Origin: Chondrosia reniformis
Taxonomy: Eukaryota; Porifera; Demospongiae; Chondrillida; Chondrillidae
Direction: 5' to 3'
NCBI GenBank assembly: GCA_947172415.1
Contig: OX359189.1
Coordinates: 5,718,501 to 5,782,500, forward strand
Length of the DNA: 64,000 bases
In this document: positions 9,601-47,700 of the stretch, piece after piece
How the letters are laid out: the number at the start of each line of letters is the position of its first letter
How positions within the stretch are numbered: the stretch's first letter is position 1
Position numbers and translations under genes: made by a program
The notes under the pieces: generated by a model
What the model saw: the letters and a program-made list of their open reading frames with translations, nothing else
Database searches by the model: none
What the model was told of the DNA's origin: nothing

Positions 9601-12600
9601 GAATATGGGAGGCTACTGAATACGGGAGGCTATTGAATATGGGAGGCTACTGAATATGGGAGGCTATTGAATATGGGAGGCTACTGAATATGGGAGGCTA
9701 CTGAATATGGGAGGTTACTGAATACGGGAGGCTACTGAATATGGGAGACTTTGAATATGGGAGGCTACCATATCCAACTGTTTCCGTATTTGTGTATTGT
9801 GAATACAATTTGTTATTAGCCTAATATTACCTTTGCTACTTTAAAGTCTGTTTCTAATTTCAAATACCTCACACATTGAGTGGGATTTTTTATATATACA
9901 CATTTAATGTACTTAAATATTAGTTTATACTCATGACATGCACAGCTATGTATCAAGGGGTCCTCTGTGTATGATGCACTGAGAGTGTCTCTTGAATATG
10001 TGGATAAGGTTCCTTATGTTAATCATGTCTGGTTTGTTTTTAGAGGAAGCTCCCGGTCAAGCTATCGACCGTCTATACCTAGTGTATCGGATGCAGGGGA
10101 TACCAATTTTAAGTGGAAAGATGTCAAACAGATCAAACTGATTGGTATGATAAGCTGCAAAGCATACTAGTTACAGTTCAATATTTCATCCAGATATACA
10201 CATATAGTACAGTATGTGTATATCAAACCTACATTGTATTCAGTTCATTATTCTATTGGAAAACAATGTATAAATAAGTTTGTTTACTGACCTGTTTTCT
10301 TCCTAACAGCAAAGAGTAGAATTTGTGGGGTTTGGAAAGCGGAAGTAAAGGGTGTTTGTCACAACAATCCTAACAGAAATCTCGTCTGTTTAAAAATTCT
10401 TAATGATGGTAAGCATGCATGTACATATGTATACACACATTATATGTACGTATGAACATATGGTACGTATGAACATATGGTACGTATGAACATATGAAAG
10501 GTAAAACTGCTAGCTGTGGTTCATTACCAGGGCTTGCATTAAACAGATAGAATAGGGTCCCTGTTTAAGTCAAGGTATAATAGTCACTGAAGGAGTCCTG
10601 AAGCTCACCTGCTCAAGCTTCAAAGCAAAGACTCCCTTTTTACACCTTGTAATGATGTACAGTCAGAGGGCTGATATACATATACGTATACGTACTGTAC
10701 ATTCTGTTTGGTATACGTGATTTCCAGCGCATGTGTGATTGTTTACTTGTTCAAGTGGCTACTTTGGTAATTTTTTTCATCTTGTGAACAATGGTTGAAA
10801 AGACTGTCTCTTTTGCAGATAAAGAACAGGCAGAGGCTACAAGATTTGCATTCCTGCAGACTTTTGAGACAAAGCGATCATTAGCAGCACATGCTAACCT
10901 TATAAACTATCTTGGTTGTTCATTTAGGAATGGTAAAAGTGAGTTTTATAGGTAAAACCATTTCTTTTCATGGCCTGTCTTCTCTTCATGCATTGCCTCT
11001 CTTAACTGAAATACAGATGCTCCTTTAGCTCTTGTTGTTGAGCTGGGCTTGTATGGGACACTTTATGACTTCCTACAAGCCAAGAGAAGGGCAAAGATTG
11101 TTGACTCCAATCACCAGTGGAAATTGATAGCAGAATTAGAGAAGGAGAAGGATTCAATTGCTCACCATGACAATGTTGGGTATGTATAGTGTGTCAGTAT
11201 CATATGTATACGTACTTAGGTATGCATCTACTTCCTTTATGTTCCTATTATCTGCATATTTAGTATTTATGAATGTAATTAGAGTCACAAGCAGTTTAGC
11301 GCACTATTTTGGCACTGTTATGCAAAAATTTAAATATGAAAACCTCTTCTTTATAGCTACCAAGGTTTACTGTATAAGCCCATGATCGTCTTAGGCAATG
11401 GGAGCAACTTGAAGCTAGTTAATAGCAACATAGAGCATAACTAAATGTACATAACATGTATACCACAGTTACCATGGTTACTTCACCATTGAGTCTCTAT
11501 TTGGTTTAGTGGCAATTAATACAGTGTGGCATATTACGTACGTACGTATATGCGTAGCCAGCTGTGGCACTGTTATAAGCTATATTCCATCATCCCTTTC
11601 TGTCACCATGCAGATACTATGTTAGCAATGTACATGAAGATTACCAGCATCCATTTACAGTTGCCATGAACACACCATTTACTGAAAGAGATTTAACTTA
11701 TTTTGCCATTCAGATTGCAAAAGCTTTGGACTTTTTACATGAACTTTCAGTAAGATGGTAGCACCAAGTGTATAATTGTGATCTAATAGAGATCTTACCC
11801 CGAGATACCCAGAGTTAAATGATGATGACATCAATGCTTTAAGATCGGCTTTAGATCTTGAAGTTCCTCTATTTTTTCCATATTAGTGGTCAGCCACACT
11901 TTCGGCTGTGCCCCTTATCTGCTGATAAGGAAACCACAAGCTTTTTTGCTTCTGGGAGTACTTATTAGCAGACTAGCCATTCAAACTTCCATCGTATGCC
12001 ATACTGATGAGTCCTAATAAGGACAAAACAGCTGTCTATGGCTCGACCATCTTTTTGAGTGGCTAGGGGGAGGCTCTGGTTCCCATCAAGCGAACTTTGG
12101 TTCCGCCCATTAGCTCATTGCGCTCCTCAGGGGACATGAGTGGGCAGGGGTAATACCCAGAGTTAAATGATGATGACATCGATGCTTTAAGATCGGCTTT
12201 AGATCTTGAAGTTCCCCTATTTTTTCCAAGAATCCATATATTTATGATCATATACAGTATTACTAACACTTACGAGAACTATACCTACAGTTGGTTAATG
12301 TTTATGTTCTGTCTGTGGTGCCTCTCTATTGCTAGGGAGTGTTCAGTTCTTAGTTTTATGGGGTTTCCATATTCAGAGAAGAGTCTCATATTTGTTAGTG
12401 CTCTATCTTTGCTGTTGTTAGGTTGTTCATCGTTCACTAACATCAGAGTGTGTGTATATTGGTGAAAACTTTGTACTGAAAGTTGGTGGATTCCATTATG
12501 AAAAGATTTCCACACCACCCAGGATGCAACCAAAGAGATTGAAACCAGTATGTGTTGCTTAATCTACTCTACTTACTGGTTAGATTACTTCTATATAATC

Positions 12601-14337: not shown

Positions 14338-17300
14338 ATGGATGAAGATCGCCGTATTGCGCGGCTTGAGAAACAGATTCTCGAGGCAGAGAATACTATT
14401 AAACAGATGAAGAGTCTTAATGAAATACTTCAGCTTCGTGCTGGTAAGTGTCACATATCCATACTTGATGAAGAATCATTACACAATTTACTAACTAAGC
14501 GAACCTATAACTGTTCTTTTTAGGTATTGGATCTTCTTCGGAGAGTGTGGTGAGTGGTTATGTTATGTTAAAAAGTATAGTTAGATATGTACTGTATGAG
14601 CTCGAGAATGTAGAGATTGTTTAGACGTAAAGTAGTATCATTTTTAGTTAATGAGATATATTTGGTATGTTTCTAGCATTAATTTGTATATGTCTTACCA
14701 TATAGGATAGTAATGTGTTTGAACTTCAGAACGAGAACATTCACTTGAAAGAAGAAGTTGAGCAGCTGAAACTTAGATTGGTTGACTTGGAAACCATGTT
14801 AGGAAGTAAGTTTAGTAACTTAACTTTTACCTTTGCTGCATGCTTTTTTTACTAAATTCCTAAAATCCTATGCAATGTTTGAATTTTTATTGAAGCTTAA
14901 ATTTGTCATTCAACAGTTCCACAAGTTTCAGTAGCTGTGGTTCCCAAGCCCACAAGTACTTCAATGGATGCAGTGCCCACAAAGGTTAATAGAAAGAAAC
15001 ACTAAATTTCATAACTTTGTTTTTGTATGGCGCATTCCCCATTTCATAAGGAGGATTTTCAGAATGGAGTTCTAATTCAAAATATGTAATCTGTGGAGCT
15101 ATGAGAATAATGGAATGCTATAAGTTGTAATACAAGTTAAATTTCTTCTACAGGAACCAGAAGTGGCAAAAGAGACCAAAACCAGTAAGAATATTGAGAA
15201 AAAGAAGAAAGAAAGTAAACCAGCCACACAGGCCAAAGAGACTGGTAAGCCTCCAGAATGTCAGCTCTTAGCTTTGCCATTTTGTACAATAACTATGTAC
15301 GAATATCACAACCTACTGTACATACGTATGTATTCATACTTATCGACTTTGTTTGATATCTTATTGTTTTGTATTGTAAATGTACGCAAGTGGTACGTAT
15401 ATGGGTATACAGTGGAACCTGTCTGATCCGATCACCTACGTATGGGACCTAATTTATATGACTGCATTTGACAGGTTGCCGCATTGTTAAAGAATCATTA
15501 ATATTCATAGTAGATGAATAATTATTTTTGAGTAAACCGAGATCTTGGTCTTGGACTTGAAGTACCATGTGTATCGTTTTAGCGGTAGGAATAGTTATGT
15601 GTACAAACTCGGAGCTTTATTAAATAGCTTGAAGACTATTTATTTGTCTCTGTTACTAAATTCGTTCTTTATTAAACCTGTTACTCATCTTTGTAAAGGT
15701 TCATCTTTCGACTTTTAGAGCGTCTAGAGACGCAGTTTTTTCGATTCTTCTGTCTGCCAAACGTTTCGACCCTGGGGGTCTTCTTCAGTGACTGGTGTTG
15801 GTCTTCAAGGTGTCTTCATTTATAGGCATCTTTTCCCGCCATTTTCGATTACTCATCAGTGGTGTCATCGGTTATATCATTTCCGGAGGAAGGAGAGGTG
15901 AAGGGAGTATTCATAAAAAAGGGTTTCCAACCACTTTTTAGTACAATTCCTTGATCTAAGTTCATTCTTACCTGACATTGTTGGATCTTCAGGGCTTCCT
16001 TAATTCTTCTTTTGTACCAGTTCTCTTCCCTCTCCACCACTCTGGCTTGGCTCCACTCAATTGGATGGCCAGTTTTTAGGGAGTGAATGGCTAAGCCATT
16101 GTTCACATCCCCCATCCTGACAGCACGTTTGTGCTCCGCCATCCTGACTTTTAGTGTTCTTCCAGTTTCTCCAGTGTACACTGCAGGGCAACTAGAACAG
16201 GGGATCTGGTAAATGCCACCTTTATATCCATGGTAGGCTGGGGTTGTTTAGGCCTAGAGAGAATACTCCTCAGTGATCTCTGCTTTGTGAAAATGGTTTC
16301 AATGTTCATCTTCCGGCATGTTCTGGAGATCATTTCACTGAGGCCTTTCACATATGGAATAAAAAGTTTACGTTTACCATCTTCCCTACTTCCCTGGTTC
16401 CGTTGTCTCTTCTTCATGTGCCTAGCAGCAACCTTACTGGGGTATCCGTTGGCCTGGAGAACCCCTTTCAGGTGCTCTTTTTCCTCTTGGAGGACACTGG
16501 ATCCAGCACCACAGATCTTCTCCGCTCTGTCCCTGAGGCAAAGGGCAATGCCAGCTTTCACCCTAGGATGGTGATGAGACGAGAAGTGAAGGTATCTATC
16601 CGTGTGGGTTGGTTTTCTGTACACGGATGTACTCAAACTTCCTTTGTTCTTCTTCACTAGCACGTCAAGAAACGGGATAGAGCCATCTGTCTCCTCCTCC
16701 ATGGTGAACTGGATGTTTCTGTGTCTTCCATTAAGGAAAGACAGAAAATCCTCCAGCTGATCCCTACCTTGGCTCCAGATGACAAAGGTGTCGTCTACAT
16801 AACGTAGCCAGAGCCTAGGTTTGGAGCCAGCCTCCTGGAGGGCTTCGTTTTCAAACTCTTCCATGAAGATGTTTGCCACCACTGGAGAGAGAGGAGAGCC
16901 CATGGCTGCCCCATCCTTCTGCTCAAAGAACTCGTTACCGTACTGGAAGTACGTTGTCCTAAGACAGAGTTCTGTGAGCATTGTGATGGTGGGAGGGTCC
17001 AGAGTGGTCCGGTCTGATAGGGTGTTGTCTTCCCTCAGCCTCCTATCAATGATCTGTAAGGAGAGATCTATAGGTACCTTCGTAAACAAGCTCTTCACAT
17101 CAAAACTGATTAACTTATCTTCATTCTCTACTTGTAATCCCCTGATTTTCTTCACAAAGTCCTCTGTTACTCATGTTATAAATGGTCAGCGCGGCCGTTA
17201 GTGCCGCTGGATATGATAAAAACACTCAAAAAAACATTAGACTAGTGACCGCATTATCAGGGTTTAAATATGGCGTATTCAGGACTTGATCCAGGTTACC

Positions 17301-28048: not shown

Positions 28049-31000
28049 CTAATCAAATACAACACTAAAAGGTAAAAATGGATGATGAAGAAAGGCAAGG
28101 GTCTGTCCTTTGAGAACAGAGCTATTTGTAAGTGTATTTTGGATGGAGGATTTATCTGAGTCAGTTGTAATACTGCTGTTGTCAAACAACAAATGATGAC
28201 TGTTTAAAACTTCTCTTACAGCTAATCTCTTTCTGGTAAAGAGCCCTAGATCAAACACATAGAGAAATACCTAAGTATCTTAGCCAGGTAGTTCAAATAC
28301 GTATAGACATACACTTCAACTTAAATTAATTAAAATGTATGTCAATGTACAAACCATTCTTTATGTTCCATTCTGATAACACTTGTACATGAAACTGTTT
28401 GGAAGTCAAATTCTTCACAGTATGTAGAATAGCAGATAATAGTATATCTATACAATATGTGAGCGGACAGACCTGTATGAAAATAAAGTTTCTGCATAAA
28501 AATTCATGAGATACCTACTCAAACTAGTAGCATTTTTAATAATTACGTAAGTCTGTACTAAATGGAACTTTTGATATATTCTGAGGAAACTAGCACATTC
28601 ATACTTAAGAGCAAGTTCAAGAATGGAATACAACACACAAAGGTTTTCCTATTACAGCTCACTTACTTAACATAAGGAAGCTAAATACATTGGCCACTCA
28701 CCCCCATTAACTTAACATCATAGTCTTTAATAGAAATACAACGTCCAATTTTATCCTGCAGATCTTTAGCATACTGTGTCAATGCTACTTCTGCATCATA
28801 GATGTGCTCAACTATAGTCCACTTGAGACCACTGTGGTTTGGTTTCGTCAGCAGGCACACTGAAGTAAGGTTGCATTCATCTGCAGATCATCAGGAGGCA
28901 ACAAAGAAGTATAACAGTTAAGGTACTCATTGCAGGGCAGGTTAGATGAAGAGTAATAGAGTAAGGATTCCTTCTAACTGTGTTGAACTTATCTTTTGAA
29001 ATTAAGGATCATCTTTCGACTTTTAGAGCATCTAAAGAGCAGCAGTCACTGAAGAAGACCCTCAGGGTCGAACGTCTGACAGCCAAGAAGAAACAACAAA
29101 ACTGCGTCTTTGGACGCTCTAAAAGTCGAAAGATGATCCTTTCAAAAGATAGATGAAGAGTGCTATTAATCACTTAAAAAACACATTAATACAGGCCTCA
29201 GTTGTCTAAGCATTCACCATCAGCAGACAACTTCATAAACGCAGCAGTAGTCACAAGATATTGTATACATATATATATACGTATGTACATACATATGAAT
29301 AATCTAACACCATTTTTTAATATGAGACATCTATTTTAGAGTAAAAGGCCAAACTAAACCCAGTGAGAGCTTTGGATGAGGATACAAGAATTGTCTCCTC
29401 CTTCTTCTCCTCTGAACCAGAGAGCTGTTTCTGGGACACCCATCATCAGTGAGTCCTGTATGAGTGTATGTACATCTTTATGTGGTAACTCACCTTTGTC
29501 AATGACCACCTTTCTTGCCTTAAGCCAGTCCATGTCATACAAGTTATCAAGACCTACAGTTGTATCATTTTTATAGCAAATAATAGATACACTGTGGCCG
29601 ACATTAATGATGACATGATCAGGGATGGCCAGTGCTAAGTGGAGGGGTACAAGCTCTGTAGATTGGAACTTTACAAAAGTTAATAGAAATGATGTTTCAT
29701 CGGCTGAGTCAGGGAAATTCGGATTCACCAGGAAATCCATGCAGCACTGATTGGTAGTTGCCTCATGAACTGGAAGATCCCTAAACCAAAGTTAGATAAG
29801 TTTTTAAATTACAGGTGGTGCTGAAAAATGGCAACTACAGAATGTAATCTAGAACAATTAAACCAGTACAATTACAACTACAAATATTGTATGTTATAGC
29901 TTTACTTGTAATATTTTAATAATTAGATCAACTGACAATAACTTTATAGGGGATTTTTTATAGGGGAGTGAGAGAATTCTTGACTTACAACTAATAGAAA
30001 GGAAACCATTCTACCTGTATGTATATAAAGATTCATATGACCATGTTCTCACTTACCTACAGGCCTGCACAACAACATACAACTTATCAGGAGTCTCTCT
30101 AACAGCCATAAAGAGGTCTTCCTGAACAGCAACACCTTTAAACAGCTCCTCAAAGTGAATCTTACAAAAGGTCAAAGGAGAGCACAAAAAGCATGTAAAA
30201 GGTTTGATGATACAGGTTAAGATACAAAAGATTTGATGACACAAAGTCGTTTAATGGATCAGCAAAATTATTCATTAAACAATCATGGTTGAAAGTGAAA
30301 AAGGAGGAACTTAAATAAGACATTAGTAGCGTATAATGTATGAATCTCATTGTAAATGAATGATGTAAGTATGACAACCATTTATACATGTATGAAGATC
30401 AATTCCTGACAATAAATTGACCACAAATTAACATATTAAATCCTTTAAAAATAATTTCCTTACTAACTGAGATTATTACATTAAGGATTCACATCTCCAT
30501 TAAACTTCTGGAGAACCATTTAGTAGTTGGTTAGAATCATTACTGAAAACCAAGTGTTCACATACATAAGCCTTATACATATTTACAAGGTCTACTGTAC
30601 GATATACATGCATATACTATAAAAATGGTTCTGGGAGGGTACATATTTATGCAAAGAGGCAACACATACAACAGGCTTTTGTGTCTTTCATACTGACATG
30701 ATGCATTTTCAAAACATACCATCCTCAGAGTAGACATGTTATGACCAATTTTCCACCAGTATAAGGTGAAGGTTGCTGTAGACCACAAAAAGGGATCTTC
30801 ATCTAGGTCTTCACCACCAGTCACTTGATCGTAGGATAGCATGTGTCTCCCATCACTTGTATAGCCAAGCATCACATGACTACCATACAAGACCAAGCAT
30901 CATCAATTAGAGAGAATGTTTGAGAAAAATAAGTATAATTATACATTGCAAGGGTTTAACAAGAAATGAGTGGAAAGAAATTATATTTATACTTGTGCGA

Positions 31001-44736: not shown

Positions 44737-47700
44737 ATGTCGTTTTTCAGGAGCGCTCCCAAGACTAAAGCTAGTTCTAAAACCTCTGGAACGAATGACA
44801 AACTTACTGACGCTCAGAAAAGGTAAGAATCTGCTACACAACCGACAACGAATGTTTCTATTAACAATCAATCTACATTTTATTTGGCCTGTATAAAAGA
44901 ATTTTGTACATATTTTCGTGTTTTAGTATTTCTCTAAACATCTTAAGTGTCTTCTGTAAAGATTAGGTCAGATTATGTCTTATTCGATAGAGTAAGCTTA
45001 CTTAGCGTTTTTAAAAGTCTACAAGGAGAAGAATTGTTGTAGTTGGCAATAATCTGTTTGGGTATTAGCATTGCAACGTGTTCGAAACAAGTCCATTTGT
45101 TTTTGTGTGTTTCTAGGAGCATAACACATATTACAACTTGCATTTATTACCAACGGATCACTGCTACCGTTACGTACCCTAGCTTTCTGTTGTAATATCT
45201 CTCACTACTTGCTATTAGTAAATCTCTGGAACGTCTCAAGCGCTATGATACTACTGCTGCAGCTACTGAGAGACCCCGGCAGCAGAGTGTCCCTGAAAAT
45301 TCCAAAACTTCAGAAAAGGATCACGGAGCACAATCAGGTGCTTCTCCTAAGAAGAATACAAAGAAAAAGGTATATGCATTTTTATGTGTATCTGTGTATT
45401 AATTTTTATATGCTCATGTATGCATGTATGTACGTGTGTATGTAATTAACATGCTCCTACAGCTGATAGTAATTTATAATGGAATAGCAGTTTGTGTATT
45501 TGTTTGGTTACCATTGAAGATGACAATTTTGTAAGATTTCAAAACTTTGTACTATTTAAAATGGGATCAGTAATGGTTATTGCTAATATATGTGCTAAAG
45601 TCCATTTTCAGCAATAGATGCAGTTCATGTACATCAGATTTTAGTGTAGTAGAATACATTATGTCCCTTCTACAGTCTTCTAAAAGGTCTCACTCTGATA
45701 TTGGAAATCACAAGCTAAGGGTTGTTCAGCAGGTAGCTGTACCCTCTGGTCCAGATGTGATGCTCATCAATGGTAAAAAGAGGACTAAGAGTGCTGGAAG
45801 CAGTGCTGAAATCCATGGGGAGACATCTCCCAAGCAGTCAAACTCTTTGGAAAAGGAGATGACATCACCTAATGTTAGCCATCAGCGTAAATCTTCTTGG
45901 TCTGGATCTAAGGAACACTCTGTTGCTACTAACATACCAAAACCTACACATCCTATGTCTAACCTGAAACCGTCAAAAGAAGTTCGAGGTCTCCCTAGAC
46001 CTTCCTCAGTGAATGAGATACATGTATCTCAGTCTTCAGCCCCACCCATATCTCCCAATGAATCTGTTAAGAGTATTACAAAGTCAACCCAAATAAGACC
46101 CAAATCTGGAGGTACGTATGTATCTTGCTCTCCCATACCTTCAGCTAGCATCTCCACAAACCTCTTCTTTCATTCTCAGTCTTTTTTTGAATGTAAATAA
46201 ATCTTTCTATGTAAGTGTTATAGTAGCACAGTTTGTCTGCTTAGACTTCCTTTTATGCCCAACTCTTTTCAACTCATGCATGCATTTTTATGCATTTAGG
46301 ACCAACCTCTTTGAAATCTCAAACAGCCCAAACTCACAGTCCTACTACAATGCTGCTTTCCAAATCAAGACTGCCAATTCCCACAGCAACCTCTGCTGGA
46401 CACCAGCAGCAGGCATATACACAGAGCACAAGATCTACAGATAGTTTAAATTTGGCGGCAAGAACAGAGAAGGCCATGAAAGCCAGACTTTATCTTGTGC
46501 AGAAAATGGGGCCAGCCACTTTTATTGTAACTGGTGATAATCTGGAGATTAAGTATCGTGTTACTATCGGTCCACAAGTACGTTCAGTTTTTGACATTTA
46601 TGAATACATTGTTGTACATATACTGCAAGAGATGTGTTACTCTTTAAATATTGTGTGCCACAAGTTGTATTTTTTACTTCAATTTCTACTATTATATAAA
46701 AACGGTTATTTAAAAATTGTGTTGTTCTATTGGTATTTCTTTTAAATATGTCTAACATGACATATAAACATATATCCTGCTTCTTATATTGTATTATACA
46801 GTTTTCAGTGATTCAAGATACTAGTTTCATTCATTGTAGTGAAAGATCTTTAGACCAAAATATCATTTTCCTTTTTCTATAGTCATGTAGCTGTGGTAAG
46901 CCCGTTTGTATCCACCTATTATTTGTCATGTTGCGAGTTCTTAAGGTTGAATCTAACAGTATGCTGCTGTGGGCAAAGGAACTCAAGAATTTTGAGGTAC
47001 GCATTTATATGTTTTACTGTGGCATTCTTCTTTTACTTACGTATGTACTAGAATAAAGTAAGGAGCTCTTCTAACTGCTTCAAACTTATCTTTTGAATGG
47101 TACATCTTTTGACTCTTTGAGCATCTAAAGCACTGTTGTTGTTTGTGGATGATGAACTTACCCAATCAACCAAAAGATTTAAACCAAACTGCATTTTTAG
47201 ATGCTCAACAAGTTGAAAGATCTGTACATAGCTTCTTAATTATACATAATGCAGTGTTGAAATAATATTGTATACAGAGGGTCTTGAGAGATCTATAGCT
47301 CACCTTAAAATATGTATGTATATATTAATCACAAATTTACATACTCTAGACAGGTTGTTGTATATTTTTAGCTGATTTGTTATTTTTTTGTAATTACTGC
47401 GTGTAGGCTCAATTGAAAGTTATTATCTCTGTGTCTTTGTGCAAACTTTATATGCAGGTGGAAACCTTGTTAGCAAATTATGATATGAGAGTAAGTAGAA
47501 GGACATCGTTTGGAAAAAAGAGGCAACTGTCTAGAGAAGTATCTTCTAAGAGGCAGCTTGACAGCTCGCTCCAATCATCAAAAGGAAGTGAATTTTCAGA
47601 TGTAATAAGTAGCACTCTAAGTGACACTATGGAATCAGTTCATCTTTCAAAGTCACCAGACCCTGAGGTATGTACATATATTAGTGTGAGATGTGCTAGT

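Follow-up and report, generated by a model that had tools for sequence, protein, structure and literature searches.

Retrozymes of animals and plants are non-coding retroelements that carry a hammerhead ribozyme (HHR). The system closest to the family reported here is that of the animal non-LTR retrozymes (Cervera and de la Pena, 2020; PMC7229834), which, in the accessible text of that paper, have a type I HHR in a repeat of 150–450 bp, are non-coding and multicopy with tandem units, have a GC content under 50%, and show target duplications of more than 4 bp and a strongly self-paired predicted circle. All of these traits recur in the family from the sponge Chondrosia reniformis described below. 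Plant LTR retrozymes resemble it as HHR-bearing non-coding retroelements with a circular RNA stage, which is a prediction in the sponge, but differ in their type III HHR, their LTR/PBS/PPT organization and their 4-bp duplications (accessible parts of PMC4918200 and PMC7761336).

Penelope-like elements (PLEs) have been proposed as the movers of retrozymes on the basis of shared HHRs, tandem occurrence and co-existence (PMC7229834; PMC7761336, both in the parts accessible). The purified PLE protein of Anolis (PAc) cuts and extends both strands of DNA, and it initiates cDNA at two neighboring positions within the RNA, which correspond to the limits of the genomic tail; the start site is reported, in the accessible part of the paper, to be no different between the top and bottom strands (PMC11167929). 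Penelope of A. vaga has inverted pLTRs, one of which carries a 31-bp tail, and target site duplications of 8–10 bp; for its head-to-head junctions the authors favor self-priming on an antisense template, not two primed cDNAs (accessible part of PMC3846280). The main text of PMC7229834 does not use “inverted,” “head-to-head,” “sponge” or “Porifera,” and neither such tails in retrozymes nor sponge retrozymes were found in the literature searched, from which subscription papers were mostly absent.

Here, we describe a repeat family of C. reniformis that has intact HHR cores, arms arranged head to head, and two alternative 3′ sites around a predicted hairpin, usually one used by each arm. It is quite probably a non-autonomous animal (non-LTR) retrozyme family that has been inserted by the reverse transcriptase (RT) and GIY-YIG endonuclease of PLEs. 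What is new is the anatomy of the insertion ends, a PLE-type signature in the retrozyme insertions themselves.

The copy in the window and its family

The window is a stretch of 64,000 nucleotides from C. reniformis (assembly GCA_947172415.1, contig OX359189.1, positions 5,718,501 to 5,782,500), and its features are collected in Table 1. A sequence-only reading had singled out in it a small unit bounded by two direct repeats, holding a type I HHR with GAAA changed to AAAA and lying within an intron, and each part of this description was borne out. The two 76-nt repeats are spaced 348 nt apart, and the copy is a single arm whose 3′ end is at the site termed L below. Helices I (GCCATA/TATGGC) and II (GTCC/GGAC) of the HHR are paired at 6/6 and 4/4 positions, helix III (CAGCTG) is minimal and palindromic, and the core consists of CTGATGA, AAAA where GAAA is usual, CAGCTG and TC; cleavage would presumably occur after position 12036. 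A search of the window with Rfam gave no HHR match over the gathering cut-off, this copy included, which is to be expected because G12 of the core is changed to A. The 348-bp unit has a GC content of 45.7%, and its longest open reading frame (ORF) starting with methionine has 38 amino acids. The copy lacks a second arm, and the search for a target duplication gave nothing longer than a 4-nt word common to its two flanks; it is an ordinary mutated member of its family, probably dead. A tRNA-derived SINE was rejected, as ARAGORN found no tRNA gene in 11700–12330, a search that decayed tRNA heads could escape.

Table 1. Features of the window (positions are counted from its first letter; q, position in the 348-bp retrozyme unit).
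Feature	Position	Strand	Basis or remark
Host intron, GT..AG, of a tyrosine-kinase-like gene	11750..12421	+	Sequence, joined-exon domain match
Retrozyme insertion	11805..12228	+	348-bp unit, then 76 bp of the next unit (q1 to q76)
First 76-nt copy of the unit's terminal part	11805..11880	+	
5′ strand of the 13-bp predicted helix closing the HHR (q169–181)	11973..11985	+	Sequence, predicted circular fold
Recurrent 5′ end in the family (q176–178)	11980–11982		Inside the predicted HHR-closing helix, just upstream of the uncut HHR
Type I HHR motif	11998..12042	+	Sequence
G12 of the HHR core is A (GAAA to AAAA)	12025..12025	+	Sequence
3′ strand of the predicted HHR-closing helix (q250–262)	12054..12066	+	Sequence, predicted circular fold
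Second 76-nt copy of the unit's terminal part	12153..12228	+	97% identical to the first
S site, short 3′ end in the family (q24–27)	12176..12179	+	Unused by the window copy
Tail hairpin between S and L, 11 bp predicted	12184..12212	+	Predicted circular fold
L site, long 3′ end (q73–76; aligned ends q71–83)	12225..12228	+	
PLE-A, 5′-truncated PLE (RT, GIY-YIG, 3′ end with HHR-like motif)	~15689..17170	-	Profile matches
PLE-derived short element	28987–29169		HHR-like motif with CTGAAGA core
PLE-derived short element	47084–47221		

The borders of the intron can be read off the sequence as a donor GT at 11750 and an acceptor AG at 12420–12421, and the two flanking exons, when joined, match PK_Tyr_Ser-Thr (2.4e-07). 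The kinase-like gene (window 11640–12520) has HRS and VGGF in its sequence. Kinases usually carry HRD and DFG at those motifs, and from this the host gene is perhaps a pseudokinase.

The unit is far from single-copy. At least 78 genomic matches to the 424-base window copy were found when 40 of 1,126 first-look candidates were scored. A genome-wide search with Rfam Hammerhead_1 listed 65 matches, of which 51 are over the cut-off (73 of 11,921 candidates scored); other copies of the same repeat do, then, pass it. A 33-base core with GAAA was found exactly at 67 places and, with one mismatch allowed, at 166 in all, and at none when the pattern was read backwards as a control; the genome copies, the matches over the Rfam cut-off and these near-exact cores together rule out a single chance motif. 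The exact core with AAAA occurs at 39 places, the window copy included (control, 0), and that with GGATGAAA, the other CpG transition, at 11. Since GGACGAAA contains a CpG, the AAAA in the core is likely to be a product of CpG decay, and the ratio of 39 to 11 hints that such decay alone is not the full explanation.

The core is conserved among copies of the repeat, and neither of the two outcomes that were named as refuting the sequence-only reading occurred. GAAA is present in 50 and the whole core intact in 48 of 57 HHRs from 43 independent insertions (12 HHRs from loci found by the HHR search, 44 from loci found by DNA similarity, and that of the window copy), and one of the nine non-intact HHRs, in the plus arm of L026, is a misalignment. 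Among the loci found by DNA similarity (L009–L047, duplicates dropped), a hand tally gives GAAA in 38 of 44 HHRs. The idea that a retrozyme-like family with active-type members stood behind a dead copy is thus upheld at the level of sequence, many type I cores being intact and the window copy being one mutated member. The family agrees with animal non-LTR retrozymes in every defining trait that was tested, and it lacks the ORF that characterizes PLEs.

Arms, outer ends and target duplications

How are the copies built? Loci were taken around 39 DNA-similarity matches and 30 HHR matches, 16 that overlapped earlier ones being dropped, and the window copy and 53 loci were aligned to the unit; 43 insertions were retained. 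Nine of ten loci from a segmental duplication (L012 was kept) and two loci of a second family (L049 and L052) were left out of the counts, and three short second arms (L032, L039, and L059) were added to the arm count. L015 and L047 have their right flank in common and may not be independent.

Twenty-nine of the 43 insertions have a two-armed, head-to-head form and 14 have a single arm. In the two-armed insertions the minus arm is on the left and the plus arm on the right, so that each insertion is bounded on either side by a 3′ end of the HHR strand. The sequence-only reading had looked to tandem copies; a direct tandem arrangement is indeed present, as head-to-tail units of 348 bp in multi-pass arms, with about two units or more in L009, L010, L014, and L015, but it lies within insertions that are mostly head-to-head. 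Several arms exceed one unit in length but many fall short of it, and there is no long array among the loci examined. Nothing was drawn from the arm lengths in L009–L047, which are biased because high scores against the 424-base query were selected. The arms of one insertion differ in length and their inner junctions vary. In being mostly head-to-head and in having two alternative 3′ ends, the sponge family is unlike the animal non-LTR retrozymes as they appear in the accessible text of PMC7229834.

The outer ends are concentrated at two sites. Among 72 outer ends, 24 are at q24–27 and 29 at q71–83; in wider classes, which were defined after the ends had been seen, 34 belong to S (q20–36), 32 to L (q59–90), three to a site at q54–55, and three lie elsewhere. 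The predicted 11-bp hairpin sits between S and L. An S end on one arm is paired with an end at L (21 insertions) or at q55 (2) on the other in 23 of the 29 two-armed insertions, against a mean of 13.2 when labels were permuted, 23 being reached in 8 of 100,000 shuffles. The six exceptions comprise two insertions with L on both arms, one with S on both, and three with an odd end. No common poly(A) tail was seen among the insertion ends inspected.

Target duplications accompany over half of the insertions. A word of at least 8 nt common to both borders was found within 28-nt windows in 24 of the 43 independent insertions, the words being 8–14 nt long, vs. 3.1% of mismatched flank pairs; the remaining 19 have no common word of 8 nt. 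The common words compare with duplications of 8–10 bp in PLEs (accessible part of PMC3846280). The flanks are 70.6% AT within 20 nt and 64.9% further out, a mild preference for AT. When the flanks of L047 were joined with a single copy of the target word, they aligned across the join at at least 38 other places with 83–88% identity, in a different repeat (40 of 2,534 candidates scored), and these places are empty sites.

The two arms of an insertion also share variants. Raw identity within insertions is often no higher than between them, but derived variants are common to the arms of one insertion in 130 of 444 cases, where 51.7 were expected. Rare derived variants are shared in 20 of 214 comparisons within insertions (9.3%) vs. 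179 of 14,239 in control pairs (1.3%), with the caveat that the pairs are not independent and that subfamilies or conversion between arms could yield the same excess.

Ten loci (L012, L013, L016–L020, L041, L043, and L046) look like one insertion copied together with its flanks, some of them later rearranged. These and several other insertions sit in repeated sequence resembling ACTAGTTGTATGTA. A long near-perfect hairpin at L009:836–979 matches mir-4524 at 3e-07, below the Rfam cut-off, and is probably another inverted repeat.

Penelope-like elements and rival accounts of the insertions

A PLE about 3.5 kb from the insertion had been taken as a sign of PLE mobilization. The element exists (PLE-A in Table 1): its RVT_1 match is over the cut-off, and its GIY-YIG match, at 21.3 bits, is just under the cut-off of 22.6. 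However, its nearness is weak evidence for mobilization because PLEs are common in this genome, with at least 119 PLE matches (119 of 930 candidates scored) and open frames of up to 858 amino acids, and proximity was therefore dropped as evidence in itself. The insertion ends are better evidence, because the asymmetry of the tail is common to the PLEs and the retrozyme of C. reniformis. The two PLE-derived short elements of the window carry short and long ends that lie on opposite strands. With such an element as the query, the scoring of 40 of 1,329 candidates gave 14 opposite-strand pairs, one of them the query locus itself, and in all 14 one arm ends at query position 71–82 and the other at 110–142; the scoring favors arms with the long end, yet any second long arm would also have been listed. 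The 3′ ends of a second PLE family, PLE-B, occur in a short form (L079) and a long form (L080) with the same kind of tail difference. Tails are about 36–40 nt in the PLEs of this genome and about 49 nt in the retrozyme, and for the PLE tails only short, weak hairpins are predicted.

The retrozyme thus shares with PLEs of the Penelope/Poseidon clade an HHR (as in PAc) and two 3′ ends around a tail (accessible parts of PMC11167929 and PMC3846280), and with Penelope of A. vaga the head-to-head second copy (PMC3846280, likewise in part). It differs from them in its lack of an RT/endonuclease ORF, its length of only 348 bp, its canonical type I HHR, and its tail, which is longer than the 30–40 nt of the PLEs in the accessible texts. 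The PLE-derived short elements (window 28987–29169 and L031:865–1052) have the same short/long asymmetry, an HHR-like motif and no RT ORF; unlike the retrozyme, they are similar in sequence to the 3′ end of PLE-A, and they are shorter. The retrozyme itself has no detectable similarity to three PLE-B ends (best E 4.2), nor any at E 1e-3 to the PLE-A end in the window. The ends of retrozyme and PLEs are therefore alike in anatomy and not in sequence, and derivation from the PLE-A or PLE-B ends examined is unsupported.

These comparisons bear on the reading of the unit as a deletion derivative of a PLE rather than a strict retrozyme, that is, a solo pLTR composed of the pLTR with its HHR, the start of the ORF, and the tail. 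The order of HHR, S, hairpin and L is that of PLE-A and PLE-B, PLE-derived short elements do exist in the genome, and q1–q76 reads as an open frame fragment. Against it, no similarity was found to the ends of the two PLE families compared (PLE-B, and PLE-A of the window); moreover, intact copies pass the Rfam type I cut-off, which the HHR-like motifs of the window PLEs do not, and in multi-pass arms 348-bp units follow one another head to tail, with no ORF from a methionine longer than 38 amino acids in the unit. We consider this origin unlikely.

Mobilization by a LINE is an alternative of another kind, in which ordinary target-primed reverse transcription would insert the retrozyme and the inverted arms would be products of twin priming. 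Twin priming does generate inversions of the 5′ portion, along with target duplications comparable in size to those found here. LINEs are also left open as movers in the accessible text of PMC7229834, and that of PMC4918200 likens the 15-bp duplications of Nematostella repeats to those of LINEs. Under twin priming, however, the 3′ end should be constant and the second priming point should vary. This fits the insertions poorly, since each of their two outer ends falls at a favored site, these sites being some 49 nt apart and usually each used once per insertion, as in the PLEs of this genome, and the ends inspected show no common poly(A) tail. A LINE is accordingly quite unlikely as the mover.

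A DNA transposon or MITE-like inverted repeat, or a plain segmental or tandem duplication, that holds an HHR by chance is extremely improbable: MITEs do show inverted arms and target duplications such as are found here, and ten loci do look like one insertion copied with its flanks, but the arms are unequal in length with variable inner junctions, four loci (L009, L010, L014, and L015) hold more than two head-to-tail units, and the outer ends form no terminal inverted repeat, S bounding one arm and L the second.

Insertion by PLE proteins, with the PLE protein as the presumed actor, remains the preferred reading. It is weakened by the six of 29 two-armed insertions that break the S/L rule, by the one-armed window copy with no target duplication, by the 19 of 43 insertions whose flanks have no word of 8 nt in common, by the lack of sequence similarity to the PLE ends compared, and by the absence of an arm starting at the HHR cut among the 67 arms. 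The use of S by one arm and L by the other is, furthermore, not explained by the work on the PAc protein, because the start site did not differ between the strands in the accessible part of that paper (PMC11167929). Self-priming on an antisense template, as favored in the accessible part of PMC3846280, is another route to the same head-to-head shape.

A possible route of copying and a second family

A route from RNA to insertion may be outlined as follows. The repeats would be transcribed, and the HHR, probably acting as a dimer through its palindromic CAGCTG, would cut the multimeric RNA into monomers, which would be ligated into circles. A PLE protein would then bind the segment of S, hairpin and L and cut both strands of the target; one target 3′ end would prime synthesis at S and its counterpart at L; the two cDNAs so made, both of minus sense, would be joined head to head, and filling-in of the staggered cut would give rise to the target duplication. 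The specific proposal that a PLE protein copies a circular RNA on which the two ends left by a single staggered cut prime simultaneously at separate sites, with the S-primed synthesis circling until it stops at the L junction and with the S-hairpin-L segment as the recognition signal, is offered tentatively, as a real possibility rather than as the expected outcome. Synthesis of this kind from S would account for arms with a start at q66–76 and for those of almost exactly one or two turns.

The form of the template was approached through the 5′ ends of the arms and through predicted folding. Folded as circles, six of six units are strongly self-paired, with z from -5.1 to -7.2 (40 shuffles each). 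Nine of 67 arms begin at q66–76, the L site, where about 2 would be expected if starts were uniform, and this cluster would also be explained by a linear RNA that starts near q70. Multi-turn arms, the q66–76 starts, the predicted self-pairing and the sharing of rare variants together make a circular RNA template plausible, and this is a weaker conclusion than that of insertion by PLE proteins. The strongest cluster of 5′ ends within 11 nt, at q346–8 (11/67), could have been created by the choice of loci, which biases 5′ ends toward the start of the query.

None of the 67 arms begins at the HHR cut itself (q233). Six of them, in six insertions, begin at q176–178 (scan p 0.007). It is possible that these 5′ ends mark a transcription start or an RT stop. 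Because they look like the 5′ end of an RNA, some templates were probably linear and uncut.

By analogy, the retrozyme would resemble a passenger of PLEs as a SINE is one of a LINE and, should the two-site copying proposed above hold, retrozymes and Penelope elements would stand in the same relation as SINEs and LINEs. The insertion ends support the idea that PLEs copy ribozyme parasites around animal genomes. PLE mobilization would also explain the presence of type I HHRs in both retrozymes and PLEs, and it is directly testable with a purified PLE protein and the 348-nt RNA.

Two of the loci found (L049:1434–1740 and L052:1434–1740) hold a second, diverged retrozyme family, 77% identical to each other. 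It resembles the first mainly in the HHR, in which helices I and II are changed. Covariation was counted in 14 sequences from both families, three of which lack the 3′ strand of helix I. Changes on both sides of a pair were found in three pairs of helices I and II (shuffled mean 1.1; 15 of 500 shuffles reach 3) and in six cells (shuffled mean 1.3; none of 500 reaches 6), and they vanish when the helix partners are slid. Against covariation, three further pair types were observed vs. a shuffled mean of 4.1. By eye, the second family ends in CTCCCC and a run of T, like the L end of the first, with a possible hairpin before it; the start of the L049 copy apparently lies some 16 nt before its HHR, likewise like an RNA 5′ end, and its insertion has CATATAACAT on both sides.
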